Assembly: GCA_020849075.1 (NCBI GenBank) | Contig: JADLGZ010000010.1 | Location: 1 to 34,598, forward strand | From: Fimbriimonadaceae bacterium | Lineage (GTDB): Bacteria; Armatimonadota; Fimbriimonadia; Fimbriimonadales; Fimbriimonadaceae | Direction: 5' to 3' | Length of the DNA: 34,598 nucleotides | In this document: piece by piece, positions 3 to 33,934 of the stretch | How positions within the stretch are numbered: position 1 is the stretch's first letter | Layout: each line of letters begins with the position of its first letter | Made by a program: the position numbers and the translations under genes | The notes under the pieces: generated by a model | What the model was told of the DNA's origin: nothing | What the model saw: only the letters and a program-made list of their open reading frames with translations | The model's database searches: none

Positions 3-1439
<1,437 letters not shown>

Positions 1440-2652: not shown

Positions 2653-2728
2653 GGTCGGTTAGCTCAGTTGGTAGAGCACTACAATGACACTGTAGGGGTC
2701 ACAGGTTCAAGTCCTGTACCGACCACCA
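2653..2728 (+). tRNA. tRNA-Val (anticodon GAC), CCA encoded
   Basis: All four arms fold. The acceptor GGTCGGT pairs perfectly with ACCGACC, the D stem is GCTC/GAGC, the anticodon stem is CTACA/TGTAG with loop ATGACAC (anticodon GAC, valine), the variable loop is GGGTC, and the T arm is ACAGG-TTCAAGT-CCTGT. The length is 76 nt including CCA. It is the integration target of the downstream elements, whose sequence supplies its present 3' half, so the gene remains complete. Confidence 0.97.
2684..2728 (+). repeat. attachment core, copy 1 (45-bp direct repeat in the tRNA 3' part)
   Basis: This segment runs from the anticodon loop to the CCA end of tRNA-Val and recurs perfectly at 14115-14159 and 25335-25379. 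Identity begins exactly at the first base of the anticodon loop (the preceding base differs), which suggests strand exchange in the anticodon loop, a known integration sublocation of tyrosine recombinases. It is the left boundary of element 1. Confidence 0.93.
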
Positions 2729-2908: not shown

Positions 2909-3160
2909 ATGGAAGTGGGTTCGGGGCAAAAACTTGCTTATACGATTGACGAAGCAGCAGAGCTGCTCTCCCTATCACGGGCCAAGCTTTATCGACTTAT
3001 CGACACGTGCGAAATTGGCTCGGTCCTGATCGGTCGCTCCCGCCGTATCACGCACTCGCAGTTGGAGGAATTCCTTCGCCGCCTTGAAGCGCAGGATGTT
3101 GCTGCATCGTTGCACCTGCGGCAGCCGATTCGCCAATTTAGGCGCACCCAAGGAGCATAG
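2909..3160 (+). CDS. Excisionase-family DNA-binding protein (element 1)
   Basis: This 83-aa protein has the helix-turn-helix pattern of the excisionase/HTH_17 family: YTIDEAAELLSLSRAKLYRL is the recognition region and IGRSRRITHSQLEEFL the wing and following helix. Such proteins act as recombination directionality factors that bend att DNA and favour excision, and some also regulate int. The ATG at 2909 aligns with the homologues at 14345 and 25567; a further start exists at 2867. It ends 4 bp before int, a spacing kept in all three elements, so the two are probably co-translated. Confidence 0.82.
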   Translation: MEVGSGQKLAYTIDEAAELLSLSRAKLYRLIDTCEIGSVLIGRSRRITHSQLEEFLRRLEAQDVAASLHLRQPIRQFRRTQGA

Positions 3161-3164
3161 CTGC

Positions 3165-4310
3165 ATGAAAGGAAGAGCCGATGACAACGACGGCTCATGC
3201 CGTGAAATCTTGACAGGTCGCCATGCTGGAAAATGGCGCGTACAATTCCGTTACCTAGATGAGACCGGCGTAAGGCGCCGGCTCTCAAAACTGTTTCAAA
3301 CCAAGACTGAGGGCAAGAAGTACTTGCAATGCCTTCGCCGCGGAGGGCGAGTCCAAGAAGCGGCGCAGACTCATGAACTAACATTTGGAGAGTGGTTTGA
3401 GTGGCTAGCGGAAAACGACTGGCCAGAAACGCTCGCTAGTGTCACCATCGCACAGCGTAGAGCCCGATTCAGGAAGTACTCCGCAAAGGTCTTTGGAAAC
3501 CAGCCTCTTAGCGGCATCGACGCATTGAAGGTCCGCGCCTTCTATCGCGAGCTACGAGGAGCGGGTGCAAGCGATTCGCTCATCATTTCGGTGAAGAGCG
3601 ATCTCGTCAGAGCATTCAACCAAGCAATCAACCCGTATCAGCAAGTCCCTCACACACTCGCAAATCCGTTCAGGCTTTCAGTGTCACAGCCTAAGCCGAG
3701 AGCGGCAGTTGCCCTCTCTGTTGAGCAGGTGAAGAATGCTATCAGTAGCCCATCACTGAGCCCTAGCCAGCAGGCACTTCTTGGGCTGCTCTTGCTGGCC
3801 GGGCTTCGTCTCGGCGAAGTGATGGCTATCACCAGGCAGCAGCTACGTCTTGATGATAACCTTATCGCGGTTGATAGGGCCGTTAAAGTTGAGTTTGGCG
3901 GAAAGCAGAGCGTTGGACTTCCAAAGAAGGACAAGACTCGAAACGCCGTGATGTGTCAGACACTCCAAGCATTATTTGAATCCTTCATCGAAGGCATGGA
4001 GCCTGAAACACTTCTTTGGCCAGCGGTTAGTGACAATAAGCCAAGGATGAAGAAGCGATTCTACGAGTTTTGGAAGGAGGCAGCGAAGTCAGCTGGGTTG
4101 CCGCCAGAAATGTCTCCCCACGACTGCAGGCTGACTCACATAAACCTCATCGAGAAACTCATGCCACTGGTATCGCCAACGACCTTAAAGGAGCATGTCG
4201 GTCACTCAGCGACGGGCGTCACCGAAGCCAACTATACGAGGCCGCTTAGTGCTTCGCAGGAAATCCTAAGGCGCGAGCTGGATCGAGTTTTCGGAGAAAT
4301 GTCCCAATAG
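3165..4310 (+). CDS. Tyrosine recombinase integrase (element 1)
   Basis: This 381-aa integrase has an N-terminal arm-binding type region (about 1-60), a SAM-like core-binding domain (about 70-180) and a catalytic domain. Catalytic residues are visible: R215 in GLRLGEV, Lys in LPKKDKT (about 254-257), HDCR at 319-322, H347 in HVGHSA and the nucleophile Y357 in EANYTR. The ATG at 3165 is chosen because AAGGAG lies 9 bases upstream and the length then equals Int3. It should catalyse site-specific recombination at the tRNA-Val core. It is clearly more diverged from Int2 and Int3 than they are from each other. Confidence 0.95.
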   Translation: MKGRADDNDGSCREILTGRHAGKWRVQFRYLDETGVRRRLSKLFQTKTEGKKYLQCLRRGGRVQEAAQTHELTFGEWFEWLAENDWPETLASVTIAQRRARFRKYSAKVFGNQPLSGIDALKVRAFYRELRGAGASDSLIISVKSDLVRAFNQAINPYQQVPHTLANPFRLSVSQPKPRAAVALSVEQVKNAISSPSLSPSQQALLGLLLLAGLRLGEVMAITRQQLRLDDNLIAVDRAVKVEFGGKQSVGLPKKDKTRNAVMCQTLQALFESFIEGMEPETLLWPAVSDNKPRMKKRFYEFWKEAAKSAGLPPEMSPHDCRLTHINLIEKLMPLVSPTTLKEHVGHSATGVTEANYTRPLSASQEILRRELDRVFGEMSQ

Positions 4311-4333: not shown

Positions 4334-4357
4334 TTATATTTTCTTGGTAGACAGCGA

Positions 4358-4385
4358 ACCGTTTGCCCTGCTTGAGACATATACT
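4358..4385 (+). promoter_or_regulatory. Putative promoter of the NifU-like/Rhs operon (element 1)
   Basis: A consensus-like -10 TATACT at 4380-4385 lies 25 bases before the ATG at 4410. A weak -35 (ACCGTT) sits 16 bp upstream. The block from here to the ATG is almost identical in element 2 at the same spacing. No clear Shine-Dalgarno precedes the ATG. Confidence 0.55.
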
Positions 4386-4409
4386 GGTAAGAGTTCTGTG
4401 TTTTCACCG

Positions 4410-4760
4410 ATGGCACTGAGTCACATTAATAACCCACGCAATGTTGGGCCGCTCGAGGGAGCGACCCACTATGGCGTTGCCGGTGTGCCAGGTGACGGAC
4501 CATTTGTTCAAATGTGGTTCATCGTAAACAGTGGCCAAATCGAACGCGGAACTTACAAGACCTACGGATGCCCAACCTCCATCGCCAGCGCGAGCATGAT
4601 TGCTGAGTTGGTGGCCGGAAAATCCGTAGAAACCGCACTCTCCTTAACCGAGGCTGACATTCGAGCTTTGCTTGCCTTTGTGCCCGAAGGAAAGGAAGAC
4701 TGCCCCCCAAGAGCGGTGCGCGCGCTCCAAAACGCGTTTGAGGAAAAGACTGATGACTGA
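4410..4760 (+). CDS. NifU/IscU-like scaffold protein with degenerate ligand set (element 1)
   Basis: This 116-aa protein follows the NifU N-terminal / IscU fold: HINNPRNVG at the start, YKTYGCPTSIASASM around C54, and KEDCPPRAVRALQNA around C98. In IscU the cluster ligands are three Cys, an Asp and a His. Here the first Cys position is P27 (VPGDG instead of xCGD), Asp D29 is kept, C54 and C98 are kept, and the His before the last Cys is D97. The protein may therefore bind a metal or cluster differently, or act as a structural adaptor. It starts at the ATG conserved in both copies and overlaps the next gene by 8 bp. Its place in an Rhs operon rather than an isc/suf/nif cluster is unusual. Confidence 0.8.
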   Translation: MALSHINNPRNVGPLEGATHYGVAGVPGDGPFVQMWFIVNSGQIERGTYKTYGCPTSIASASMIAELVAGKSVETALSLTEADIRALLAFVPEGKEDCPPRAVRALQNAFEEKTDD

Positions 4761-4983
4761 ACTGCCCTTTAGCCCGGCCCGTGGCCCTGTTCAAGATTGT
4801 GATTCATGCGGTGACCCGAAGGGCGGCGTTTGCGTATTTGGATCGAACAATTCGCACTCACTGATGATGCCTCCTGGCGCTCCTGGCAGTGGTCCCTGGT
4901 GTCCCGCACCAAATCTTAGTAATGCAAGTGACATGGACAGTTGGAAGTGTCATTACGTCCGCCTCCTCCTTTCAAATCCATGA
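4753..4983 (+). CDS. Small Cys-rich protein between NifU-like and Rhs genes (element 1)
   Basis: I do not recognise this 76-aa protein. It starts inside the 3' end of the NifU-like gene (8-bp overlap) and its stop overlaps the Rhs start as ATGA, so it is translationally chained on both sides. It shares with the element 2 copy the pattern LPFS, DCxSC, GGxCV, SLMMPPG, GxxCP and KC: five conserved cysteines in a protein that is otherwise quite diverged. There is no signal peptide or membrane segment. It could be a metal- or cluster-binding partner, a small tip or adaptor, or a chaperone for the Rhs protein; none of these can be shown from sequence. Confidence 0.7.
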   Translation: MTELPFSPARGPVQDCDSCGDPKGGVCVFGSNNSHSLMMPPGAPGSGPWCPAPNLSNASDMDSWKCHYVRLLLSNP

Positions 4984-7900
4984 TACGCCCTGAAGTTTGG
5001 CCTTGGGAAATTGATGCAGCATCAGGCGGCTGCAAGATTGATCCTGTTGCTCACCACCCTCACCGGCCAATCCCCGATCCTGCAACTGGCCACCTCGTGG
5101 CCGACCCTGATATCGTTCTCAAAGCCAAGGGTTTCGATCTTGAGATCAGCTTCTTTTACAGCACCGCGTCTCAACCTGGAGGCGTAATGTGGGGGAACCG
5201 GCGATCTGCGAGTGTCAATATGCAGATCAAAATTGACCAAGTCAATGGCAACGTGAATGTCATTCGTGGCGATGGGAAGGTTTACGGCTTCAGCGGGATT
5301 TGGGCGCCAAGTACACCAACTTCGATGACGCCAAATCCGACGCTGTACAGCGGAACCGAACTCTTATGGGACGGGAGCCAGTTCATAGAGACGTTCCCAG
5401 ATGGCAAGACTGTAACTTATGGAGAAGAGCTCCAGGCCGACACTTACTACGCAGTTAGTGAGATTGAAGACCTATCGGGAAATGTGCACGCATACACCTA
5501 CGACGGCATCAATTTGATCCGTATCGAGGTGCCAGGCGGAAACCGCGTCACGTTCCATTACGATGGCGACGGGCATGTCGAAATGGTCCAGGACTGGGGC
5601 GACCGCCGATGGTTGATGACCTACGATGAGTTTGACCAGCTCGAAACTTATACACTGCCAACGGGCTGTCAGACGCAATACTTTTACCCTGGCGACAACG
5701 GTCTAGTCAATGCCATTATGGACCCTCGGGGATATGTGTCGAGTTACACGTTCAATGACTTTGACCGTGTAGAAACGATGTCTCTCGGTACAGCTACGTG
5801 GACCTATACGTATTACCAGTATGCTGGCGGCCCCTTAGGCTCCCGCGTTGAGTCCCCTACCGGAGCGATTACAACCTACCTGCTTGATAGCGTCGGCTTT
5901 ACAATCGCCAAGGAAGTGCCGGAGGGCTACATTATTTCCTATGCCTACGATGCGACTGGGAACAAGATTATCGAGGAGATGCCTTACGGTCACGTCCTTA
6001 GCCTCACCTACAACGCATCCAATTTGCCCCTTACGAGCCGAGACCCTCTCGGCAATGTGACGACCTACAATTACGACGTCAATAACAATCTGGTCAGCCT
6101 CATGAATGCGCTTGGCGAGGTGACGACAATGACCTATGATGGGCAACGTCGCATGACGAGCCGAATGGACGCCCTGGGCAGAGTCACATCGAATGTTTGG
6201 AATACCGATGGCACCCTCAAGGCGCAAGTTGATGGGCGCGGACTTCGTACAACGTACGCCTATGACGCAGTAGGAAATCTAGCCAGCACGCTATACGCGG
6301 ACCACTCGGTGTCGACCTATACCTACGATGTTCTCAATAGGCGGATTTCTGCCAAGGACCCATTAGGGCGCGTGACTACAACGGCCTACGATGCGGTCGA
6401 CCACATTGTCTCGATCATGAACGCGGCCGGTGAGATATCGACTTTTATCTATGATTCCTGCTTCCTGCAACAGAAAGTGAACCCTCTAGGTTATCGCACG
6501 ACTTACACCTACGAGCGGTACGGAAAGGTCCGAACGGTTAAGAACGCCCTTGGGCAAGTCACGACGACCAACTACGACAATATGGGTTACCCTGTCACCA
6601 TTCAGAACGCTCTGGGTTACGTGACCACCATGATCTACAATGCCGCAAATCAAAGGCTTGCGGTTCAAGACGCCAATGGTAACCGAGTGACAACGGCATA
6701 TGATTTCGGTGGCAGGCCAGTCAATTTCATCAACGGAGAAGGCATCATAACAAGTACGGTTTATGATGCTCGTGGCCCGATCGCTTCAGAAGATGCCCTA
6801 GGCCGGCGAACGACGATGATTATGGATGCGCTGGGGAGGCGTATCGCAACGCAAACTCCCATGAACTTCCGAACTACCACGATCTACGATCAGGCAGGGC
6901 AGGTTCGGGCAACTCAGGATGCAAGAGGATTCCTAACCACAAATTGCTATGACCTGGCGGGCAATCTTGTAACCGTCTGTGATGCAAGAGGTTTTATTAC
7001 AACGCGGGTCTACGAAGATACCAGTAATCGAGTGAGAGTTAGTCAAGATAAGACGGGCGCTCGCACGACTTTCACTTACGATGTCTCGGGCCAACCCATC
7101 GCACTTCAGAATGCGAGGGGGTTTCGCACGACTCTTACGTTCGACCTCGCAGGTCGAACGAGGAGCATCCAGAATCCGTTTGGCTGGCGGACAACGTACA
7201 GCTACGATGCGGCCGGCCAAAACGTCGAGGTCAAAAACGTCAGCAGTTTTAGCCACACGACGATTTATGATGCCCTTGGGCGAGTCACGGCAACGCAAAC
7301 ACCACTCAATATTCGGACAACATATTCATACGATGCTGTTGGACACCAGATCGATACGCAAGACGCAGACGGGTTCCGATGGAGTACGATTTACGACCCA
7401 GCAGGACGCGCAATTGCCAGCCAAACGCCACTGAACAATCGCACGACAACCACTTATGACAAAGCCAATCGCCCAATCGAAGTGAGGAACCCACGGGGCT
7501 ATGTAACAACGAGCACGTACGATTTGGCGTCAAGAGTCATTTCCCAACAAAACCCGCTTGGTCATCTAAAGCAATTTGGCTATGATGCTGACGGGCGCAA
7601 TGTGACGATCGCCAACGCCATCGGCGGCATTATCACAATGGTGTACGACGAGGTCAGCCATCTTCTTGAAATTGCTAATGAGTTGAATCACAGGACAACC
7701 TATACTTACGACCCGGTCGGCAATGTGTCCACCAGGCGCTTCGCCAATGGGGATAGAACCACTTACTTGTACGATCCCGTTGGGCGGCAGATAGGCAGAC
7801 ACTACGCCGATAATGCACGTGTGACCTTAACATACGACGCCGTCGGGAACTTGGTGGAGCAAGCTGAAAACATTGGTTCAGGTTCCGCTCAAATGACCTA

Positions 7901-9653
7901 CGATTCCATCAATCGGATGGACTACCGTCAGGACCAGTACGACATGGCCTTGCAGTACTTCTATGAGCGTACCGGAGAGCTAGCCCAAATTTTCGACCCG
8001 GGCACTAGCAGTTATGTGTCTTCTTGGACCCGCGACCCAGATGGCCGCATCGTAAGATACGAGAACTCCAATGGAGATCCGATAGAGCCAAGCTATGATG
8101 GCAGGGGCCACAAAATCGCAATCTCTTATTACTCAGGCCACTTGCAGGAGTTTGCATTTGATAGCGATGGCCGTAATGTTGGTATCAAGGATACGGTAGG
8201 GTCCGAAGTCCAGCGCTTCACCTATACGTTCGATGGTAATGGTAATCGAACGGGGACACAAGATAAGAATGGCTCGACTTCGGCCTATGCCTATGATGCG
8301 CTCGACCGCATTGAGTCCGATACGACAACGGGGACGGACGCGCACACATACACCTATGTGTTTGATTCGCGAAGTAATTTGACTCACCATACCGAAGACA
8401 CGGTCATTACTACTATGACCTACGATGCGGCAAGTCGAATTCAGACGATGCAGATCGCCGCAGCTTCGGGAAGCTATGTTCATGACTTGAATGGAAACAT
8501 GGTGCAGAGCGGCGCCACAGTCATGACCTATGACAAGGAAAATCGTCTTCGAACAATTCCTGATAAGAACATCGGGGGAGCCATAGTAACCTTCACATAC
8601 GACGCCTTTAGCCGTCTGCGGGAAGAAAACTTTGGCGGTGACATCAATGAGGTCTATTGGCTCGATGATATTAGTATAGGTGAGCGATCTGACTCCACAC
8701 CAGTTGGCCAGTTTTCGAATATATACATGTCGCTTGACGGAGTCATCATGGGCGACACTGGAAATCCGTTCATTGCCCCAGAATGGTCCGACTATCTGGT
8801 CGACTTCCTTGGGTCTATTACTGGCGAAGTGGATGCAGGCGGAGGTGTTTCTGGAACCAGACGTTACAAGCCATTTGGCCCGCGCTTATCTGGTGCCGCC
8901 GTGGCTCGTCAAACATTTGGGTTTACGGGAAACACGGGTTCAAGACATACCGCCATAGCCTTGGCTGAACAATATAATCGGTTCCGAATTTACACGTCAT
9001 GGCTTAAGCAGTGGACGACACGAGATCCGATTTGGCCAAGCGAGTTGCCGTACTCTTATGTACAAGGTAATCCGACAAGTTGGCTAGACCCATACGGGCT
9101 TGCGCGAAATGGAGATATGCCTTCGCCTCCTAATCGACCCTTGATACCCACGGACGAAAACCCCGAAGATAATATAAACACGGGTTTTGATCCATGTCTT
9201 TCGATCGTGTTTCCGCTTGGGACATGGGGACCAGCCGCCATAACGCTAAAAATAAGGTTCTGTCAGCAACTTTATGACACAACTTGTTGTTTAGGTCCGG
9301 CGGCTTCAAAGTGTACTAAGATTCAGGCCTCTGTAGCGGCCGAACTACCTTTATCCCCAGCCGATCTGTTCGACAATCTTAGTGACCAAGTTAGTCAGGC
9401 AATTGAAGCGATCCTTGGTATAGCTGCAGGATTTGGAAATCTTACCGTTGGACAAGTCCCGATTAAGGGGTGCCCTGCTCCCCGACAAGACGTGACCGTG
9501 GAAGTATGTATTGGAGGGTGCATTTTTATTCAAACCCTAAAGGGCTGTTTTGCTATTCCACCTGGCAAGCTATACTTAGAGTCAAAGACTGGTTACTGTG
9601 GGATATTAAGTGCGGAGATAGAAGGCTCAATTTCGATCGAAAACTGTGAGTAA
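4980..9653 (+). CDS. Rhs/YD-repeat polymorphic toxin (element 1)
   Basis: The 1557-aa protein has an N-terminal region conserved with element 2 (PEVWPWEIDA, CKIDPVAHHPHRPIPDP) and several dozen YD repeats (TTTYDAxG types) from about residue 140 to 1280, which should form the hollow Rhs cocoon. The Rhs core follows (WTTRDPIWPSELPYSY, GNPTSWLDPYGL), after which a variable tip of about 190 residues with 11 cysteines begins. I recognise no enzymatic motif in the tip. The ATG at 4980 is chosen because it overlaps the upstream stop and aligns with the second copy. No PAAR domain, signal peptide or membrane segment is visible, so the export route is unclear. The downstream gene overlaps and is the probable immunity gene. 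Confidence 0.93.
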   Translation: MIRPEVWPWEIDAASGGCKIDPVAHHPHRPIPDPATGHLVADPDIVLKAKGFDLEISFFYSTASQPGGVMWGNRRSASVNMQIKIDQVNGNVNVIRGDGKVYGFSGIWAPSTPTSMTPNPTLYSGTELLWDGSQFIETFPDGKTVTYGEELQADTYYAVSEIEDLSGNVHAYTYDGINLIRIEVPGGNRVTFHYDGDGHVEMVQDWGDRRWLMTYDEFDQLETYTLPTGCQTQYFYPGDNGLVNAIMDPRGYVSSYTFNDFDRVETMSLGTATWTYTYYQYAGGPLGSRVESPTGAITTYLLDSVGFTIAKEVPEGYIISYAYDATGNKIIEEMPYGHVLSLTYNASNLPLTSRDPLGNVTTYNYDVNNNLVSLMNALGEVTTMTYDGQRRMTSRMDALGRVTSNVWNTDGTLKAQVDGRGLRTTYAYDAVGNLASTLYADHSVSTYTYDVLNRRISAKDPLGRVTTTAYDAVDHIVSIMNAAGEISTFIYDSCFLQQKVNPLGYRTTYTYERYGKVRTVKNALGQVTTTNYDNMGYPVTIQNALGYVTTMIYNAANQRLAVQDANGNRVTTAYDFGGRPVNFINGEGIITSTVYDARGPIASEDALGRRTTMIMDALGRRIATQTPMNFRTTTIYDQAGQVRATQDARGFLTTNCYDLAGNLVTVCDARGFITTRVYEDTSNRVRVSQDKTGARTTFTYDVSGQPIALQNARGFRTTLTFDLAGRTRSIQNPFGWRTTYSYDAAGQNVEVKNVSSFSHTTIYDALGRVTATQTPLNIRTTYSYDAVGHQIDTQDADGFRWSTIYDPAGRAIASQTPLNNRTTTTYDKANRPIEVRNPRGYVTTSTYDLASRVISQQNPLGHLKQFGYDADGRNVTIANAIGGIITMVYDEVSHLLEIANELNHRTTYTYDPVGNVSTRRFANGDRTTYLYDPVGRQIGRHYADNARVTLTYDAVGNLVEQAENIGSGSAQMTYDSINRMDYRQDQYDMALQYFYERTGELAQIFDPGTSSYVSSWTRDPDGRIVRYENSNGDPIEPSYDGRGHKIAISYYSGHLQEFAFDSDGRNVGIKDTVGSEVQRFTYTFDGNGNRTGTQDKNGSTSAYAYDALDRIESDTTTGTDAHTYTYVFDSRSNLTHHTEDTVITTMTYDAASRIQTMQIAAASGSYVHDLNGNMVQSGATVMTYDKENRLRTIPDKNIGGAIVTFTYDAFSRLREENFGGDINEVYWLDDISIGERSDSTPVGQFSNIYMSLDGVIMGDTGNPFIAPEWSDYLVDFLGSITGEVDAGGGVSGTRRYKPFGPRLSGAAVARQTFGFTGNTGSRHTAIALAEQYNRFRIYTSWLKQWTTRDPIWPSELPYSYVQGNPTSWLDPYGLARNGDMPSPPNRPLIPTDENPEDNINTGFDPCLSIVFPLGTWGPAAITLKIRFCQQLYDTTCCLGPAASKCTKIQASVAAELPLSPADLFDNLSDQVSQAIEAILGIAAGFGNLTVGQVPIKGCPAPRQDVTVEVCIGGCIFIQTLKGCFAIPPGKLYLESKTGYCGILSAEIEGSISIENCE

Positions 9654-10119
9654 CGAAGTGACATATAACAGGTCTGCCGATGCCCTAAGAAAAGAAGCCG
9701 CAAAGTTCCGTATTGGCTTTGTTTTGATTGGATTGGCAGCTTTCAGCCTTTCAGGGTGGAGCATTGTCTCACGTGCACCTGAAGTCTTCTTCTTTGCTTG
9801 TGTACTCGTGCTATTCTTTTTTGGATTGTTTAGGTATCGGCCCAGCTTTCCAGCAAAGATTGTTACGCACCAAGATTGGGTTACCTTTGTGATGCCGGAC
9901 GGGAAAACTGTCGAATTCAGATCTGGCGATGAAGTGCATGTAAAAAAGCCGTTGGGCAGACCATCAGTTTCAATTGGGCCCTTCCAGTTGGTTAGGGGAG
10001 AGACCAAAGTGACATTAGATGAAGGCTACGAGGGATTTTCAGGCCTGGTTCGTGACCTGTATCGACTCTTTCCCGAGTGCAAAGAAAAGTTAGCGTATTG
10101 GACCGCGATTCCAGAATAA
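9646..10119 (+). CDS. Putative membrane immunity protein for the element 1 Rhs toxin
   Basis: The 157-aa product starts at a GTG that overlaps the Rhs stop by 8 bp. Two hydrophobic segments (about 23-41 and 47-62) form a hairpin near the N-terminus and a soluble domain follows. It resembles no family I know. Position immediately after a variable toxin tip, overlap with it, and the same arrangement at the other three toxins in this window support an immunity role. The membrane location suggests protection at or across the inner membrane. Confidence 0.65.
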   Translation: MSNEVTYNRSADALRKEAAKFRIGFVLIGLAAFSLSGWSIVSRAPEVFFFACVLVLFFFGLFRYRPSFPAKIVTHQDWVTFVMPDGKTVEFRSGDEVHVKKPLGRPSVSIGPFQLVRGETKVTLDEGYEGFSGLVRDLYRLFPECKEKLAYWTAIPE

Positions 10120-14114: not shown

Positions 14115-14159
14115 ATGACACTGTAGGGGTCACAGGTTCAAGTCCTGTACCGACCACCA
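14115..14159 (+). repeat. attachment core, copy 2 (element 1 / element 2 junction)
   Basis: A perfect 45-bp copy of the tRNA-Val segment from the anticodon loop to CCA, without the tRNA 5' half. It is the right end of element 1 and the left end of element 2. The bases before it (GAATTCCT) match copy 3 and differ from the real tRNA, as expected of an element-derived end. Confidence 0.93.
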
Positions 14160-14344: not shown

Positions 14345-14584
14345 ATGGATCAAGCAAAGCTGTGCTACACCGTTGATGAAGCAGCCAGCCTTCTTTCGAT
14401 AAGCCGTGCTCAGGTGTACCGCTTAATTGATAGGGCCGACATCGCCTCAATAAAGGTCGGACGGTCTCGGCGGATTACACATGCTCAACTGATTGAGTTC
14501 TTGAAGAGGCTTGAGGCAAAGGACAAATCGACTTTGCTCACCTGGCATGCGATTCGCACGACACCGCAAACTCGGCAACGCTAG
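14345..14584 (+). CDS. Excisionase-family DNA-binding protein (element 2)
   Basis: The 79-aa protein has the same HTH_17/excisionase layout as its two paralogues: YTVDEAASLLSISRAQVYRL followed by VGRSRRITHAQLIEFLKRLE. The ATG at 14345 aligns with the element 3 start; a TTG at 14339 would add two residues. It ends 4 bp before int. The differing recognition-helix residues (SISRAQV versus SLSRAKL in element 1) suggest some divergence in DNA contacts. Confidence 0.82.
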   Translation: MDQAKLCYTVDEAASLLSISRAQVYRLIDRADIASIKVGRSRRITHAQLIEFLKRLEAKDKSTLLTWHAIRTTPQTRQR

Positions 14585-14588
14585 GGGT

Positions 14589-15728
14589 ATGAGACATCGA
14601 GCCGATAATAATGACGGCTCATGCCGTGAAATCTTAACAGGTAAGCACGCTGGTAAGTGGCGCGTCCAATTCACCCTCCGGACCGACACCGGGAGAAAAA
14701 GTCGCTTGTCCCGGATCTTTCGCACCAAGAGTGAGGCAAAGTCGTTTCTTCACCAGCTCTTGAGAGGCGAACGCATTGAGACTACCTTTGCCAGTAAGGA
14801 AACGACAATGGGAGACTGGTTTGAGTGGCTAGCCGAAAACGATTGGCCCGAGTCCATTGCTGAGGTCACCATAGCTCAACGAAGAGCACGGTTCAAAAAG
14901 TATGCCCAGGCACACTTTGGACGGATGCCTTTGTCCTCAATCGATGCCGTGCGCGTTAGAGCCTTTTATCAGGAACTTAGAGCGCAAGGAGCGAGTGCGT
15001 CGCTGCTTGCTTCCGTAAAGAGTGACCTTGTCCGAGCATTTGGGCAGGCCATCACTCCTTACCAGAAGATTCCAACCTCTAACGCGAATCCGTTCCGGCT
15101 ATCTCTGCCAGCTCCCGAGCGACGAGCAGCTGTTGCCTTATCGGTTGATGAAGTAAGGGCCGCGATACATTCGCAACGACTTGACTCAAGCCAACGAGCT
15201 CTACTCGGACTCCTGCTATTGGCAGGGCTTCGACTAGGTGAGGTCATGGCCATGACTAAGCAGCAGCTAATGATCGATGAGAACCTAATTGCGGTCGATA
15301 GGGCCGTCAAGGTCGAATTCGGTGGCAAGCAAAGCATTGGACTTCCTAAGAAGGACAAGACCCGCAATGCAGTGATGTGCCAAACGCTGAAGTCGATCTT
15401 ACTCCCATTTATTGCAGACCTTGGGCCAGAGGTACTCCTGTGGCCCGCGGCTAGTGAGAATAAACCTCGAATGAAGAAACGGTTCTACGAATTCTGGAAG
15501 GCGACCGCGGCCGCAGCTGGTCTACCCAAGGAGATGTCGCCCCACGACTGTAGACTGACGCACATCAATCTTATTGAGAAACTCATGCCAAAGGTGTCGG
15601 CAACGACTTTCAAAGAACACGTTGGGCATTCAGCAACTGGCGTTACTGAGGCGAACTATACGAGACCCATCTCGGCCTCTCAGGAAATCCTCAGGTCAGA
15701 ACTTGATCGAGTGTTTGGTTGTAACTGA
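14589..15728 (+). CDS. Tyrosine recombinase integrase (element 2)
   Basis: The 379-aa protein is closely related to Int3 over its whole length, and less closely to Int1. The catalytic set is intact: Arg in AGLRLGEV, Lys in LPKKDKTRN, HDCR in SPHDCRLTH, His in EHVGHSA and Tyr in TEANYTRP. The ATG at 14589 gives the N-terminus MRHRADNNDGSCREIL shared with Int3; the TTG at 14511 lies inside xis and is rejected. The enzyme is expected to recombine the tRNA-Val core, and the presence of three active-looking integrases on one target allows excision of single or joined elements. Confidence 0.95.
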   Translation: MRHRADNNDGSCREILTGKHAGKWRVQFTLRTDTGRKSRLSRIFRTKSEAKSFLHQLLRGERIETTFASKETTMGDWFEWLAENDWPESIAEVTIAQRRARFKKYAQAHFGRMPLSSIDAVRVRAFYQELRAQGASASLLASVKSDLVRAFGQAITPYQKIPTSNANPFRLSLPAPERRAAVALSVDEVRAAIHSQRLDSSQRALLGLLLLAGLRLGEVMAMTKQQLMIDENLIAVDRAVKVEFGGKQSIGLPKKDKTRNAVMCQTLKSILLPFIADLGPEVLLWPAASENKPRMKKRFYEFWKATAAAAGLPKEMSPHDCRLTHINLIEKLMPKVSATTFKEHVGHSATGVTEANYTRPISASQEILRSELDRVFGCN

Positions 15729-18897: not shown

Positions 18898-18921
18898 GGT
18901 AAGAGTTCTGTGTTTTCACCG

Positions 18922-19263
18922 ATGGCACTGAGTCACATTAACAACCCTCGCAACGTGGGGCAGCTTGAAGGAGCGACCCATTACGGCGTTGCCGGCGTGC
19001 CGGGTGATGGACCTTTCGTCCAAATGTGGTTCATCGTAAACGGTGACCAAATCGAGCGCGGGACTTACAAGACCTACGGATGCCCAACCTCCATTGCCAG
19101 TGCGAGCATGATCGCTGAGCTAGTGGCCGGAAAGTCCGTAGCAACGGCGCTCTCCTTGACCGAGGCAGACATTCGAGCTTTGCTTGCATACGTGCCCGAG
19201 GGAAAGGGCGACTGCCCGCCAAGAGCAATACAGGCGTTACAGAACGCATTGGAGAAGTTATGA
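18922..19263 (+). CDS. NifU/IscU-like scaffold protein with degenerate ligand set (element 2)
   Basis: This 113-aa protein is a near copy of the element 1 protein. It shows the same substitutions at cluster-ligand positions: VPGDG in place of the first Cys motif, YGCPTSIAS with Cys kept, and KGDCPPRA with Cys kept but Asp in place of His. Keeping both the losses and the remaining ligands in two diverged elements suggests selection for this altered site, not decay. Its stop overlaps the ATG of the next gene as ATGA. No isc, suf or nif partner genes are nearby. Confidence 0.8.
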   Translation: MALSHINNPRNVGQLEGATHYGVAGVPGDGPFVQMWFIVNGDQIERGTYKTYGCPTSIASASMIAELVAGKSVATALSLTEADIRALLAYVPEGKGDCPPRAIQALQNALEKL

Positions 19264-19487
19264 CGACAATGGGATCTTTGCCGTTTAGTCTAGGGAGTGA
19301 TTGCCCTAGCTGCGATCAGCCTACTACAGGCGGGATGTGTGTTGTAAGCGCAACCCGAGCCTATAGTTTGATGATGCCGCCTGGGCTTGGCAATAATGGC
19401 GGATTCTGCCCAGTACAAAACATGGCAGCCGATGTTGATAGTTCGGAAAAGAAGTGCGAGCATGCCCCGCCTCCGCCGCCCATTTAG
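19260..19487 (+). CDS. Small Cys-rich protein between NifU-like and Rhs genes (element 2)
   Basis: The 75-aa protein overlaps the upstream stop by 4 bp and ends 17 bases before the Rhs ATG. It keeps all five cysteines of the element 1 copy (DCPSC, GMCV, FCP, KCE) and the SLMMPPG segment, and ends in a polyproline tail (HAPPPPPI). Low overall similarity with strict cysteine conservation points to metal binding or disulfides. I do not recognise the family. Confidence 0.7.
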   Translation: MTTMGSLPFSLGSDCPSCDQPTTGGMCVVSATRAYSLMMPPGLGNNGGFCPVQNMAADVDSSEKKCEHAPPPPPI

Positions 19488-19504: not shown

Positions 19505-22500
19505 ATGGACCGTCCAGAACTTTGGCCCTGGGAAGTTGACGCAGCCGCTGGTGGCTGCAAGATTGATCCCGTTGCGCATCATCCCCACAGACCGATTCCC
19601 GACCCGGTAACGGGACACCTAGTGGTGGACCCTGAGATCGTTCTAAAAGCTCGAGGTTTCAATCTCGAGATTAGCTTCTTCTACAACACTGCATCTCAAT
19701 TTGCACCTGGATGCTGGGGCAAGCTGAGGTCCGCGAGCGTTAATGTTCGGCTATTGGAAGGGAGTAATGAAGTTTGGTTGATTCGGGGAGATGGAAAGTC
19801 TTACCGATTTACCGGTTCATGGGCACCTACAGTGGTCACCACGATGACTGCTGACGCAGATATGTACAGCGGCACTCAGCTAGTCTGGGATGGCGCACAA
19901 TTTGTGGAGACGTTCGCCGATGGCAAAACAATCACATATGGTGAAGCACTTCCCGACAGCTACTTTGGCGCCACTGAAATCGCGGACGCATCGGGCAATA
20001 TCCAGACCTACACATATAGCTCTGGCAACCTTGAGAGCATTGAGGTGCCGGGTGGAAACAAAGTCACGTTTCTCTACGATGGCTCACTAGTCGAGACGGT
20101 TCAAGACTGGGGCGGCCGGCGATGGACTTTTACTTATGACGGTGATAGCCAGCTGGAGACCTTTACAATTCCAACTGGATGTCAGACTCAATATAGCAAC
20201 CCATCGACCGATGGATTGATCGATGCAATCACCGATCCTCGCGGATATACAACTAGCTACACGTTTTACGGAGATGGGAGAGTTGAGACCATGTCCCTGG
20301 GAGCCGCGGTCTGGACATACACCTATAGCACTGGTTATGGAACGTACGGCGGATCGGCCGTCGAGTCACCGACCGGTGCCTTAACAACGTATTTATTCGA
20401 CGTTAACGGCGTGATCGCCGAAAAGCAAGTGCCCGAGGGTTACTCAATTCAGTACGTGTATGACGTCAATGGCAACATTGCTCGTGAGATCATGCCCTAC
20501 GGCGACGTAGTCTCGATGACCTACAACGCCTTCAACCAACCTCTCACAAGCAAAGACCCGCTCGGTAACACCACCACATTCAAGTACGACACGGACAATA
20601 ACTTGGTGAGTGTTATGAATGCTCTGGGTCAGATTACAACCATGGCCTACGATGGTGACCGACGCATGGTCAGCCGGATGGACGCCCTGGGCCGCGTTAC
20701 CACCAATGTCTGGAATGGCGATGGCACTCTGCGAGCGCAAGTTGATGGTCGGGGGTTACGCACTACGTATGCGTATGATGCTGTCGGCAACCTTGCCAGC
20801 ACGCTTTACTCAGATGGCTCTGTTGCAACCTACACCTACGACACGCTGAATCGCAGAGTCGCGGTCAAAGACCCGCTTGGGCGCATTACGACGACGGCCT
20901 ACGATGCGGCAGACAATGTAGTATCGGTGATAAATGCCGCTAACGAAGTCACGACATACATCTACAGCACCTGCTTGCTCCAAGCCGTCGTAAACCCTCT
21001 TGGCCACCGGACAAGCTACACCTATGAACGATACGGCAAGGTTCGTACAGTCACCAACGCGCTGAACCAGGTGACGACAACCAATTACGACAATATGGGT
21101 TATCCGGTCACGATCCAGAATGCTCTGGGCTTCGTGACAACGATGGTCTATAACGCCGCTAAGCAGCTCCTCTCGGTGCAGGATGCCAATGGCAATCGCA
21201 CAACAACCAACTATGATGCCGGTGGCCGGCCCGTAACGTACATCAACGGCGCGGACATTATCACGACGACAGTTTATGATGCTCGGGGCCCCGTTGCGAC
21301 CGTCGATGGCTTAGGTAGAAGGACCACTATGGTCTTTGATGCAGTGGGCCGACAGATTGCAACACAGAGCCCAATGAACTTCCGCACGACGACCATTTAT
21401 GACGCGGCAGGGCAAGTTTGGGCAGTTGAAGACGCGCTGGGCTACCGAACGACGAACAGCTATGATCTCGCCGGCAACTTAGTTACGGTCATTGACGCCA
21501 GAGGTTTTGTCACGACCCAGATTTACGAGACCACGTCAAACCGTGTGCGGGCAACACAGGACGCGACCGGGGCCAGGACGACTTACAGCTATGATATAGG
21601 TGGCCAAGTGGTGACCACGATGAACGCACGTGGGTACGTTACAACAACCACGTATGATGCGGTGGGGCGGGTGAAGGAAGTGCGAGATGCGCTGGGCTAT
21701 CGAACGACCTATAGCTACGATGCGGCGGGCCAGAATACGGCCGTCAAAAACGCTCGTAACAACACTTTCACGACCATTTATGACGCATTGGGCCGGGTGG
21801 CGGCGAGCCAGACACCGCTGAATATCCGCACCACGAATATTTATGATGCAGCTGGTCAACAGATCGCAACGCAAGATGGCGATGGCCACCGATGGACAAC
21901 GATTTACGATCCCGGTGGAAGGGTCTGGGCAACTCAGACTCCTTTGAACTATCGGACCACGACGACTTATGACGGCGCAGACAGGCCTTTCTTGAGCCAG
22001 AATCCGCGTGGCTATGTCACGACCACCGTGTATGACGCGGCGAATCGCGTGATCTCGATCATGAATGCGCTTGGCCATGTCAAGCAATTCGGATACGACC
22101 TCGATAGCCGCAATGTCACGATCGTGAACCCTGCGGGCGGCACAATAACGATGGCCTATGACAATGCCGGGCAGATGATTGGTATAGCCAATGAACTGAA
22201 CCAGCGCACAACATACACCTATGACCCCATCGGTAATGTTGCGACCAGGAAGTTCGCCAACGCCGATGTGACGTCCTACACGTACGATCAAGTTGGCAGA
22301 GAATCAAAACGCGAGTACATGGATGGCTCTAAGGTGACGTTTGCATACGACACCGTCGGGAATCTCACCACCATGATGGACGCGCTTGGTACGGCAACCT
22401 ATACCTACGATGCGGTGGACCAAACCCTTCTAGAAGTGGACGAGTCAGCTCGCAAGCAACAGTTTACGTATGACGCGGTAGGGAATCGTACACAACTAAC

Positions 22501-24247
22501 CTTCACTGACATAGGTCACTTTTACACGTGGGCATACGACAACGATGATCGACAAATCCAAACGATCGACCCACTAGATAACGAGGTCAACACCCAGTTT
22601 AATGCCAGGGGATTACGCACAACCGTTACCTATCAAGGTGGACGAAACCAAGTTTTCACATATGACAATGCAGGGCGGAATGTTGAAATCTTAAACAACT
22701 CAAACCTAAAGGTCGAGATGTTCACGTACACGTACGATGAGAATAGTAATGTCTTTACCTGGAAGCATGCTACCAACGTAGCGACGTACACCTATGACGC
22801 CATAGACAGGCTAACCGCCGATACGACGACGGGATCAAATGCTCATACATATGGATACAGCTATGATTCGCGCGGCAATATCCTGACGAATAACGAGTCG
22901 GGGACGATTACAACGCACTCTTACGATGCTGCTAGCAGATTGTCGGTGTCTCTTGAGGGCTCCATTCCCACGACCTACGTTTACGACGTGAATGGGAATC
23001 CAGTTCAGATCGAGAAGGGTTCTGACCAGGTCTCAATGGCATATGACTTTGAGAACCAGATGTCGTATTGGGAGGACAACATTGGGAACACAACCTACTT
23101 CGCCTATGATCCTTTCATGCACTTGAAAGAAGACAACAACGTTGCTACTACAGCACGGTGGCACATGTGGCTCGAGGATATGATTGTTCGGACCTTCGAT
23201 ACAGGTGGAGGTACGCGTGCTTACACGACGAACGATGGCGTAATCGTTGGCGAGGTTGACGACCTAACTGGTACGCCTGCGACTACCTACTATCTGACCG
23301 ACCTCTTGGGTTCGGTGACGGGCACTCACTTTACCGGGACCTTCCCGACCACGAGCCGCCGATTTACTCCGTATGGCAGGCTAATGACAGGCACCGCCCT
23401 CACGCCATACGTTCCTGCATGGATAGGGGGGCATGGCTACTACAACAATGACCTGCCATGGGCAGAGTACATGGCTTGGCACCGGTTTGTCTCGACGAGA
23501 ACGAGCCAATGGACCACGAGAGACCTGCTTTGGCCCGATGAGTTGCCGTATGGGTATGCCTGGGGAAATCCAACAACTTGGAGTGATCCAAACGGGCTTG
23601 GACCTTGTACCTTGCAAATTCCCAGGAATAGCATTGCGGATACGCCGTGTAGCGATAAAGCCGGAAGGTCTGCTTGGAACACATATATCTACAAGTACTG
23701 CAAGTGCGCAAAAACCCGCGAAACAAAGCTCCGATGTGACGAACTCTCACGAGAGTATTACAAGAAATGCAAGGGACAACCCGGGGCGGGCCCGTTTGCA
23801 CCTGGTCCCTCAGGAATTGTTCCGCTAGACGTTCAAAAGTGCTTTGTATACCAATGCGAGTGGAAGCCTGGGCACTATGCAGGGCTCGCGCCTGGGCATC
23901 TCTTTATTTGTGCCTCTATTACGGGCAAGGGTCGGAGGAGAAAATGCTCGGCAGGCTTAAGTCCATTCAGCAACACAGCACCGGGATGGACGCCGGGGTA
24001 TGTTAGTGATACAGACTACGACTGTCCTCCTACTAATGAACCTGAGATAAAATGCCGCCTAGTATGGGCCGGTTCCGGAGATGATTTGCAGTGCAGATAT
24101 GCTGGAGCCCTATGTGATTGCATTGATCGATTACCGCCAAAACAGGATTATAATTTCTGGACCAGAAACTGCACCCACTTTGTGGGAGAATTAGATGAGT
24201 GCGCCAAAGCGGCCGCAATGAAGTCATGGGCAAAAGGAAAGCAGTAG
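19505..24247 (+). CDS. Rhs/YD-repeat polymorphic toxin with papain/NlpC-like tip (element 2)
   Basis: The 1580-aa protein parallels the element 1 Rhs in every domain: N-terminus PELWPWEVDAAAGGCKIDPV, dozens of YD repeats, and core TTRDLLWPDELPYGYAWGNP with hinge SDPNGL. The tip of about 220 residues is unrelated to that of element 1 and holds 17 cysteines. It contains an upstream His block, GHYAGLAPGHLFICAS, and a downstream NFWTRNCTHFVGELDEC. The His-then-Cys order and the NCTHF context suggest a circularly permuted papain-like/NlpC-P60 fold (peptidase, amidase or acyltransferase); this is an inference from motifs. The ATG at 19505 is chosen for alignment with the first copy and a GAGAAGATAAAG leader. 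The overlapping downstream gene is the likely immunity gene. Confidence 0.93.
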   Translation: MDRPELWPWEVDAAAGGCKIDPVAHHPHRPIPDPVTGHLVVDPEIVLKARGFNLEISFFYNTASQFAPGCWGKLRSASVNVRLLEGSNEVWLIRGDGKSYRFTGSWAPTVVTTMTADADMYSGTQLVWDGAQFVETFADGKTITYGEALPDSYFGATEIADASGNIQTYTYSSGNLESIEVPGGNKVTFLYDGSLVETVQDWGGRRWTFTYDGDSQLETFTIPTGCQTQYSNPSTDGLIDAITDPRGYTTSYTFYGDGRVETMSLGAAVWTYTYSTGYGTYGGSAVESPTGALTTYLFDVNGVIAEKQVPEGYSIQYVYDVNGNIAREIMPYGDVVSMTYNAFNQPLTSKDPLGNTTTFKYDTDNNLVSVMNALGQITTMAYDGDRRMVSRMDALGRVTTNVWNGDGTLRAQVDGRGLRTTYAYDAVGNLASTLYSDGSVATYTYDTLNRRVAVKDPLGRITTTAYDAADNVVSVINAANEVTTYIYSTCLLQAVVNPLGHRTSYTYERYGKVRTVTNALNQVTTTNYDNMGYPVTIQNALGFVTTMVYNAAKQLLSVQDANGNRTTTNYDAGGRPVTYINGADIITTTVYDARGPVATVDGLGRRTTMVFDAVGRQIATQSPMNFRTTTIYDAAGQVWAVEDALGYRTTNSYDLAGNLVTVIDARGFVTTQIYETTSNRVRATQDATGARTTYSYDIGGQVVTTMNARGYVTTTTYDAVGRVKEVRDALGYRTTYSYDAAGQNTAVKNARNNTFTTIYDALGRVAASQTPLNIRTTNIYDAAGQQIATQDGDGHRWTTIYDPGGRVWATQTPLNYRTTTTYDGADRPFLSQNPRGYVTTTVYDAANRVISIMNALGHVKQFGYDLDSRNVTIVNPAGGTITMAYDNAGQMIGIANELNQRTTYTYDPIGNVATRKFANADVTSYTYDQVGRESKREYMDGSKVTFAYDTVGNLTTMMDALGTATYTYDAVDQTLLEVDESARKQQFTYDAVGNRTQLTFTDIGHFYTWAYDNDDRQIQTIDPLDNEVNTQFNARGLRTTVTYQGGRNQVFTYDNAGRNVEILNNSNLKVEMFTYTYDENSNVFTWKHATNVATYTYDAIDRLTADTTTGSNAHTYGYSYDSRGNILTNNESGTITTHSYDAASRLSVSLEGSIPTTYVYDVNGNPVQIEKGSDQVSMAYDFENQMSYWEDNIGNTTYFAYDPFMHLKEDNNVATTARWHMWLEDMIVRTFDTGGGTRAYTTNDGVIVGEVDDLTGTPATTYYLTDLLGSVTGTHFTGTFPTTSRRFTPYGRLMTGTALTPYVPAWIGGHGYYNNDLPWAEYMAWHRFVSTRTSQWTTRDLLWPDELPYGYAWGNPTTWSDPNGLGPCTLQIPRNSIADTPCSDKAGRSAWNTYIYKYCKCAKTRETKLRCDELSREYYKKCKGQPGAGPFAPGPSGIVPLDVQKCFVYQCEWKPGHYAGLAPGHLFICASITGKGRRRKCSAGLSPFSNTAPGWTPGYVSDTDYDCPPTNEPEIKCRLVWAGSGDDLQCRYAGALCDCIDRLPPKQDYNFWTRNCTHFVGELDECAKAAAMKSWAKGKQ

Positions 24248-24633
24248 CAATAGTTCTGAAAAGCCTTGTGGCTTTTTCGGCAATATGTGTTGCCGGTAAA
24301 CTCTATTTTGATCGGGTAAGTGAAGAGTTGAAACACAATCAGCTCCGTACTGGTTCGCAGATTGTTAGTGAGGCATACAGTGGTAAGGCCCTTGATCTTA
24401 GTAGCAATCCGGTGGCGAGAAAGTTAGTACGTATTGCGGAAGATTATGGTGAGGTTCAATCGTTCGATATAGTCGAGGCGGGCGCGGTGCCGTACAAAGA
24501 CGTAGCCACATTTATCATTAGTGTGCGCCGACAGCAAGGCTTTACGACAGAACGCGTAACATTACGGGGTCAAAAAACTGCAGAAGTAAAGGTCATGAGT
24601 ATTCACCGGGAAAAGAGCACCCCAGAGAATTAA
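24226..24633 (+). CDS. Putative membrane-anchored immunity protein for the element 2 Rhs toxin
   Basis: The 135-aa product starts inside the Rhs 3' end (22-bp overlap). After a basic start (MGKRK) a single membrane segment, about residues 7-24, is followed by a soluble domain with no recognised family. A basic N-terminus with one membrane segment suggests an N-in orientation with the soluble domain in the periplasm. The ATG at 24226 is chosen over an upstream start at 24199 that would put charged residues before the segment. Immunity is inferred from order and overlap. Confidence 0.65.
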   Translation: MGKRKAVAIVLKSLVAFSAICVAGKLYFDRVSEELKHNQLRTGSQIVSEAYSGKALDLSSNPVARKLVRIAEDYGEVQSFDIVEAGAVPYKDVATFIISVRRQQGFTTERVTLRGQKTAEVKVMSIHREKSTPEN

Positions 24634-25334: not shown

Positions 25335-25379
25335 ATGACACTGTAGGGGTCACAGGTTCAAGTCCTGTACCGACCACCA
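25335..25379 (+). repeat. attachment core, copy 3 (element 2 / element 3 junction)
   Basis: The third perfect 45-bp copy of the tRNA-Val 3' part. It closes element 2 and opens element 3. Only tRNA 3' sequence is present, so this is not a functional tRNA gene. Confidence 0.93.
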
Positions 25380-25810: not shown

Positions 25811-26956
25811 ATGGGACATCGAGCCGACAATAATGACGGCTCATGCCGTGAAATCTTAACAGGAAAGCACGCCGGCAAATGGCGGGTCCAATTTACACTC
25901 CGCACTGACACAGGTAGAAAGAATCGCTTATCCCGGATTTTTCGCACCAAGACTGAGGCAAAGTCGTTTCTTCACCAGCTATTGAGAGGTGAACGTATTG
26001 AGTCGACCTTGGTCTGCAAGGAAACAACCATGGGAGACTGGTTTGAGTGGCTTGCCGAGAATGATTGGCCCGAGTCGATTGCTTCAGTTACCATAGCTCA
26101 ACGAAGAGCAAGGTTTAGGAAGTATGCCCAGGCACACTTTGGGCGGATGCCCTTGTCCGCAATCGATGCGGTGCGCGTTAGAGCCTTTTATCAAGAGCTA
26201 AGGGCGCAAGGAGCAAGCGCTTCGCTGGTTGCTTCTGTGAAGAGTGACCTTGTCAGAGCATTTGGGCAAGCCATCACTCCTTACCACAAGGTGCCATCAT
26301 CTCACGCCAACCCGTTCCGTCTCTCCTTACCTGCCTCCCAGCGCCGAGTGGCGATTGCCTTGTCGGTCGATGAAGTAAGAGCAGCAATTCAAGCACCATT
26401 GCTCGACGGGAGTCAACGCGCCCTACTCGGGCTCCTTCTACTGGCGGGCCTTCGACTGGGTGAGGTCATGGCTGTGACTAAGCAGCAACTAAGGATTGAT
26501 GAAAATCTTATTGCTGTCGATAGGGCCGTCAAGGTCGAATTCGGTGGCAAGCAAAGCATTGGACTTCCTAAGAAGGATAAGGTCCGCAATGCAGTAATGT
26601 GCCAAACACTGAAGTCAATCTTACTTCCATATATTGCGGACCTCGAACCGGAGGCACTTCTGTGGCCCGCATCATGTGAGAACAAGCCACGAATGAAAAA
26701 GCGCTTCTATGAGTTCTGGAAGGCTACCGCAGCCTTAGCTGGCCTACCTGCAGAAATGTCGCCCCACGACTGCCGGCTGACACATGTAAACCTAATAGAG
26801 AAGCTGATGCCAACGGTTTCAGTGACCACACTTAAAGAGCATGTGGGCCATGCAGCGACGGGCGTAACTGAAGCCAACTATACCCGACCGATCTCTGCCT
26901 CGCAGAGAATCCTAATCATTGAACTTGACCGCGTATTTGGCATTGCCAATTCCTGA
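25811..26956 (+). CDS. Tyrosine recombinase integrase (element 3)
   Basis: The 381-aa protein begins MGHRADNNDGSCREIL and carries the complete catalytic set: AGLRLGEV (Arg), LPKKDKVRN (Lys), SPHDCRLTH (His and Arg), EHVGHAATG (His) and TEANYTRP (Tyr). It is much closer to Int2 than to Int1, at both protein and DNA level, and even the preceding xis and att-flanking DNA follow this pattern. It is expected to act on the tRNA-Val core. Confidence 0.95.
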   Translation: MGHRADNNDGSCREILTGKHAGKWRVQFTLRTDTGRKNRLSRIFRTKTEAKSFLHQLLRGERIESTLVCKETTMGDWFEWLAENDWPESIASVTIAQRRARFRKYAQAHFGRMPLSAIDAVRVRAFYQELRAQGASASLVASVKSDLVRAFGQAITPYHKVPSSHANPFRLSLPASQRRVAIALSVDEVRAAIQAPLLDGSQRALLGLLLLAGLRLGEVMAVTKQQLRIDENLIAVDRAVKVEFGGKQSIGLPKKDKVRNAVMCQTLKSILLPYIADLEPEALLWPASCENKPRMKKRFYEFWKATAALAGLPAEMSPHDCRLTHVNLIEKLMPTVSVTTLKEHVGHAATGVTEANYTRPISASQRILIIELDRVFGIANS

Positions 26957-33583: not shown

Positions 33584-33934
33584 CTACTTCACTCGCCTAT
33601 ACCTAATGTTTAGGTGTAACTCCCCCTCAGTTGCAACAACCGAGGCCGAGTCATCGCTGGCCCACGGGTATAGCTCATACTCTCTTGTTCTTCCTTGGCT
33701 TGTCACGCTCAGGCGGTAAACCGGCTTTGTTGGATATAGCCTTTCACTTCTCAATATCTCGCGCCCATCAAGTCTTAGGACCTGGGAAGTGTCGCTTCTC
33801 GCAATCAACACCGGATTTCCGACAAAGAAGAACCCATACACGACCAAAATCAAAATCGCGAGGCCCAAGAATATGAAAACGAATTTTCCGCGTGAATTCA
33901 CAGCAGGTACCCCTGATTCCACAGTGCCCCGCAT
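33584..33934 (-). CDS. Putative membrane-anchored immunity protein for the element 3 Rhs toxin
   Basis: The 116-aa product starts at an ATG within the Rhs 3' end (37-bp overlap). One strong membrane segment, about residues 18-38 (FVFIFLGLAILILVVYGFFF), is followed by a soluble domain of beta character that I do not recognise. A TTG at 33946 would add four residues. Gene order, overlap and topology match the other three toxin/immunity pairs here. Confidence 0.65.
   Translation of the reverse strand: MRGTVESGVPAVNSRGKFVFIFLGLAILILVVYGFFFVGNPVLIARSDTSQVLRLDGREILRSERLYPTKPVYRLSVTSQGRTREYELYPWASDDSASVVATEGELHLNIRYRRVK

Follow-up and report, generated by a model that had tools for sequence, protein, structure and literature searches.

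A cluster-ligand-poor IscU-fold protein is linked to a small cysteine-rich protein and an Rhs protein in Armatimonadota

What is a protein with the fold of an Fe-S cluster scaffold doing at the head of an Rhs operon? This question is raised by a 34,598-nucleotide stretch of a Fimbriimonadaceae genome (G000; the whole stretch is called the window here), in which, as the initial annotation had stated, two elements carry the same three genes in the same order. Both copies are intact, and so is a third, which lies at one end of the genome's contig C97. In copy 1, a NifU/IscU-fold accessory gene (4398..4760, plus strand, as are all triad genes below; Pfam NifU_N, E = 2.7e-21) is followed by the gene of a small Cys/Gly/Pro-rich protein with five Cys (4753..4983) and by an Rhs/YD-repeat gene (4980..9653; RHS_repeat, 1.1e-82; Rhs_assc_core, 2.1e-12), whose 1557-aa product has shell and tip fused. 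Copy 2 consists of a NifU/IscU-fold gene (18910..19263; NifU_N, 6.5e-22) that is 91% identical to that of copy 1, a small five-Cys gene (19260..19487) and an Rhs/YD-repeat gene (19505..24247; RHS_repeat, 1.3e-89) for a protein of 1580 aa, in which the Rhs_assc_core match lies under the curated cut-off (22.1 vs 32.5 bits). The Pfam scan placed about 19 RHS repeats in each of the two large proteins.

The gene starts needed a correction: the NifU-like genes had been taken to begin at ATG 4410 and ATG 18922, but the GTG codons at 4398 and 18910 are likelier, since relatives align from there (MFSPAVLDH...) and the copies share a VFSPMALSH leader. With ATG 4410 internal, the protein read from the GTG at 4398 is probably 120 aa long. 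The start-stop overlaps described earlier hold at both junctions of copy 1 and at the NifU/small-protein junction of copy 2, but not at the Rhs ATG of copy 2, which lies 17 nt past the small gene. The near-identical block noticed upstream (GAACC...TATACTGGTAAGAGTTCT; 4357..4397, plus strand, as the promoter/leader of copy 1) recurs in all three copies of this genome and in a genome of the same genus (G039). A further, more distant IscU/SufU-like gene is found on contig C4 of the window's genome. Two additional Rhs sequences were observed there as well: a fragment on the window's right edge (33901-34596, minus strand), after which comes a small ORF encoding a strongly hydrophobic segment, and a gene on contig C167 (L202) with no recognised NifU-like or small gene upstream.

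To see how far this arrangement extends, we searched 85 genomes in the family, 113 in the order and 291 in the phylum and retrieved 100 loci; linkage was scored as an Rhs gene at most 800 bp away on the same strand, and NifU-like genes followed by 800 bp or more of sequence were counted. The results showed that 68 of 77 degenerate NifU-like genes in Armatimonadota had such a neighbour, in contrast to none of 19 canonical SufU/IscU genes. The check suggested at the outset, namely a search for NifU-like genes close upstream of Rhs genes, therefore found the pair in dozens of genomes, accompanied by the small Cys protein, and neither of the outcomes feared at that stage (a NifU-like gene confined to the two elements, or one dispersed without a link to Rhs) was seen. 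Three of the nine exceptions (L126-L128) had overlapping Rhs sequence, or Rhs sequence some 2 kb downstream, while degenerate NifU-like genes without an adjacent Rhs gene were found at six loci (L051, L060, L071, L130, L140, and L144). Among the 85 family genomes, 40 had both the NifU-like gene and an Rhs N-terminus of the triad type, two only the former, none only the latter and 43 neither (Fisher p = 3e-22, phylogeny ignored); one of the two NifU-only genomes (G081) did have a linked Rhs gene in the separate locus search. The triad loci come from 20 genera within the family and from additional families in the phylum. Comparisons among four copies of the NifU-like gene gave dN/dS values of 0.06-0.10 (about 0.07), indicating purifying selection, and this, together with the recurrence of the arrangement across the phylum, argues that the triad is a product of neither chance nor decay.

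We then considered whether the first protein could still build Fe-S clusters. Its AlphaFold (AF2) model has the IscU fold (pLDDT 93.5), with IscU (7c8m) as the best PDB match in Foldseek (TM 0.85). The triad copies are separated from 25 canonical IscU/SufU sequences by a single branch with 99% SH-aLRT support, and the score against the NCBIfam equivalog NifU_clost (78 bits) stays below its cut-off of 188. In IscU residue numbering, the position of Cys37 is occupied by Asp in 35 and by Glu in 25 of 80 copies (a rare Cys is present in L050) and that of Asp39 by Pro in 66 of 80; both ligands have been lost in nearly all copies, and the Cys106 equivalent is present in 36 of 80. The middle Cys (the Cys63 equivalent, Cys58 of the triad protein, flanked by Gly/Pro) is kept in 80 of 80 copies, and 77 of 80 retain the LPPVK-region Lys. 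In the window, both copies still have the middle Cys and the third Cys but not the Cys37 and Asp39 equivalents. A new loop, G-x-P-G-x-G-[PN]-[YF], stands in place of the cluster loop. The triad protein thus resembles IscU/NifU/SufU scaffolds in fold, family, middle Cys and LPPVK-region Lys, but differs from them in its replaced Cys37/Asp39 equivalents, in a third Cys kept in under half of the copies, and in having the G-x-P-G-x-G-P-Y motif and a genetic linkage to Rhs. Judged by its sequence, it forms a separate branch of the IscU family that is poor in cluster ligands. Because the first cluster Cys and the Asp are lost, canonical Fe-S scaffolding is unlikely, and the loss of ligands across the 80 copies speaks against such a function. 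Of the interpretation offered at first, the coupling of the three genes has hence proved general, whereas Fe-S cluster loading is not supported. This appears to be an unusual case in which the fold of an Fe-S scaffold, its cluster site lost, has been recruited to a toxin operon.

The second gene of the triad encodes a small protein with at least three Cys in 60 of the 64 linked loci having a candidate ORF, most often five. Those under 130 aa contain 6.6% Cys, 18.5% Gly and 14.6% Pro, and they follow a loose pattern (LPF, a Gly-rich stretch, C..C, GGxC, LPxP, and CP near the C-terminus). No confident structural model was obtained: the protein of copy 1 is predicted to be disordered, with a pLDDT of 42.6. 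Since these proteins are short and of low complexity, their homology is uncertain, and their unity rests on position, composition and the loose motif. In other families and classes of the phylum, a Cys/Pro/Gly-rich extension forms the N-terminus of the Rhs protein itself (L129, L131, L134, L147, and apparently L141), which speaks for the Rhs N-terminus as the place where the small protein acts. Six small proteins (L053, L058, L059, L070, L077, and L090) are extended by a Hint/intein-like domain, with weak but consistent matches; five of the six end in an HN motif, usually with a short tail. Hint/intein-like domains are likewise found in polymorphic toxins, but here the domain is in a separate small protein rather than in the toxin chain, and the window copies are without it. 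At two loci (L204 and L205), Rhs units have a small Cys/Gly-rich ORF but no NifU-like gene just upstream.

The third protein has the architecture of a polymorphic toxin. Behind the core, the C-terminal tips vary between copies and loci: the tip of copy 1 (9099..9650, after DPYG) has 184 aa with 11 Cys and no Pfam match, and that of copy 2 (23597..24244) has 216 aa with 17 Cys. The Cys-rich tip reported for the window proved to be a general feature, with Cys making up 6.8% of 12 tips but 0.6% of the shells. Pfam matches of the tips are weak at best, a few being metallopeptidase-like or phosphodiester-glycosidase-like, so the case for toxicity rests on architecture. Each window tip gene is overlapped by a candidate immunity gene on the same strand, that of copy 1 (9646..10119, GTG start) coding for a putative membrane protein, proposed from its position and hydrophobic segments and without a Pfam match, and that of copy 2 (24226..24633) for a protein with an N-terminal hydrophobic segment. 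Among the ORFs after tips, a list that includes further Rhs pieces, 11 of 21 encode a strongly hydrophobic segment close to the N-terminus; such ORFs are consistent with immunity to toxins that would act outside the cytoplasm. In 24 of 52 loci the Rhs protein is split: the shell terminates behind ...VWDGxDYLGE, and cap and tip follow in another ORF that often overlaps it (TAATG/TGATG), with up to three such cassettes in tandem. Split loci include L049, L058, L043, L035, L078, L046, L065, L069, and L070, L035 being split at a different point. A split shell with tandem tips would permit quick toxin exchange. TcB/TcC of the Tc toxins offer a possible parallel, which we use as a lead only: they resemble the many relatives with an Rhs shell protein and separate C-terminal variable-domain proteins, but in the triad the split follows VWDGxDYL and the cassettes stand in tandem behind the shell, while the window Rhs proteins are fused.

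Rhs cages are chiefly known from T6SS cargo and from Sec-exported proteins. The T6SS sheath protein TssC/VipB was detected in 0 of 85 family genomes (an E. coli control was positive), by which delivery through a T6SS was rejected, and none of the three triad proteins of either window copy had a Pfam match to PAAR. A contractile-sheath route (eCIS or phage-tail-like) was also rejected: Phage_sheath_1 was found in 8 of 61 genomes with no pattern relative to the triad, and neither the window's genome nor most of the sampled triad genomes had it. By eye, a signal peptide could be made out neither at MIRPEVWPWEID nor in the small protein. As outlined in two accounts of T6SS Rhs effectors, their operons run from an Eag chaperone through PAAR/Rhs to an immunity gene (PMC7773334, PMC8636562). 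Set against these outlines, the triad similarly has a small upstream accessory gene, an Rhs cage with a core motif, a variable tip and a small downstream gene; unlike them, its accessory has the IscU fold, a separate Cys/Gly-rich protein takes the place of the N-terminal domain, and on the triad side there is no sheath gene in the 85 genomes and no PAAR match. The Bdellovibrio pair Bd0108/Bd0109, a small protein and a YD protein, was rejected as a parallel, being described as Sec-exported and tied to pili, with no NifU mentioned in the sections of that paper dealing with the pair (PMC3818213). No paper linking NifU/IscU with Rhs was found in the open-access literature. We file the triad with the Rhs polymorphic-toxin systems, as neither a T6SS effector operon nor an Fe-S assembly system. 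It points to a route of Rhs toxin loading or export that does without the usual injection machine, as far as the missing T6SS sheath in 85 genomes of one family goes, and its two conserved accessory proteins may serve as handles on how Rhs proteins leave cells without T6SS or Sec export.

Taken together, we tentatively favour, as a reading that may well be right, a polymorphic Rhs toxin operon with an IscU-fold chaperone or adaptor, a detached cap, a caged tip and adjacent immunity. The small Cys/Gly/Pro-rich protein would be an N-terminal cap or plug that has become detached from the Rhs cage, and the IscU-fold protein its dedicated cytoplasmic chaperone or adaptor, which may use its invariant Cys58 and its GxPGxGPY and PxGK loops to hold the thiol-rich, flexible cap until the cap docks on the cage for export. 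The tip, rich in Cys and enclosed by the cage, would then act outside the cytoplasm, on competitors, and the adjacent, often membrane-anchored protein would give immunity. It is also possible, if a little less probable, that a cluster-dead IscU-fold chaperone of a detached Cys-rich cap defines a T6SS-independent mode of Rhs export in Armatimonadota, with interchangeable tandem tip cassettes.

The kept cysteines could be read in two other ways. The NifU-like protein might supply the five-Cys protein with zinc, in a SufU-like manner, or with an unusual Fe site; the five-Cys protein would then be a metal-pinned cage tip comparable to a PAAR tip. Its solved relatives do include zinc-dependent SufU besides the best-scoring IscU-type scaffolds, an invariant Cys and a near-invariant Lys remain, and the small protein has Cys-x2-Cys pairs, as does the fused Rhs N-terminus of L141 and L147; but the middle Cys is the only canonical ligand always kept, the Cys37/Asp39 equivalents being replaced, the five Cys are spaced in widely different ways, and His makes up only 0.9% of the small proteins, so that we consider metal loading unlikely. 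Alternatively, the NifU-like Cys, by a transient mixed disulfide or persulfide, might keep cap and tip reduced in the cytoplasm until export, as would fit its invariance between flanking Gly/Pro and the Cys-rich nature of cap and tips. We regard this as doubtful too, since there is no thioredoxin-like motif and the invariant Cys may be structural or a mere inheritance from IscU.

Covariation with the Rhs protein bears on the chaperone/adaptor reading. Distances between NifU-like proteins and between Rhs N-termini were correlated (Mantel r = 0.54, reached in 0 of 2000 permutations), and the nearest neighbour was shared in 25 of 45 cases; at one locus (L203, in G061), three tandem full-length Rhs genes stand behind a single NifU-like gene. 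That the NifU-like protein is instead a regulator or an immunity/antitoxin partner would suit its place as first gene of the operon, behind the conserved upstream block, but this is very unlikely given its covariation with the Rhs N-terminus, the sharing of one NifU-like gene by tandem Rhs units and tip cassettes, and the separate candidate immunity genes that follow the tips.

The window units ride on mobile DNA. A tRNA-Val (gac) gene (2653..2728, plus strand; ARAGORN, Rfam) is the integration site, exact 45-bp copies of its 3' end (att, plus strand) mark the boundary between islands 1 and 2 (14115..14159) and the right end of island 2 (25335..25379), and each island has a tyrosine integrase on the plus strand (3084..4310, Phage_integrase 3.8e-12; 14511..15728, 6.1e-10); a third tyrosine integrase (25811-26956) lies 3' of the last att repeat. 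Judging from these boundaries, both window triads are cargo of two tandem tRNA-Val integrative islands, which is why the triad is repeated in the window. That the linkage reflects only shared ancestry or hitch-hiking on such islands, without functional coupling, is nonetheless highly improbable, because across genera and classes the genes keep their order even where protein identity has fallen to 26-50%, only two other triad loci have a related integrase nearby, the dN/dS is about 0.07, and the two genes co-occur across genomes at the p value given above, itself without phylogenetic correction. With so few related integrases elsewhere, the islands are a local vehicle and not part of the system.

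A pattern scan of other records, made with an alignment (A2) tighter than the over-diverse A1, gave hosts among Armatimonadetes, Fimbriimonadaceae and Chthonomonas and one MAG labelled as a methanogen, most likely mislabelled; viral contigs had no match to the A2 patterns. A plasmid or phage reservoir was rejected, as the matches listed were mostly annotated as ordinary IscU/NifU. Since some copies lack an adjacent Rhs gene (the six loci above and a Planctomyces plasmid), the NifU-like protein may have another or a wider function. Two of these six loci, L051 and L060, form a NifU-like sub-branch (GESDxPGEGPY, SPGCPSS) with no neighbouring Rhs gene. On the plasmid of Planctomyces sp. SH-PL62 (L208, 7977-8339), a degenerate NifU-like gene of the triad type (PGQGPF) sits among glycosyltransferase genes without an adjacent Rhs gene, the Rhs gene there being about 8 kb upstream. 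At L157 (G150, 396-1280, minus strand), a single ORF fuses an N-terminal Rhs fragment with the latter half of a NifU-like protein, possibly as a chimera or as a copy in decay.
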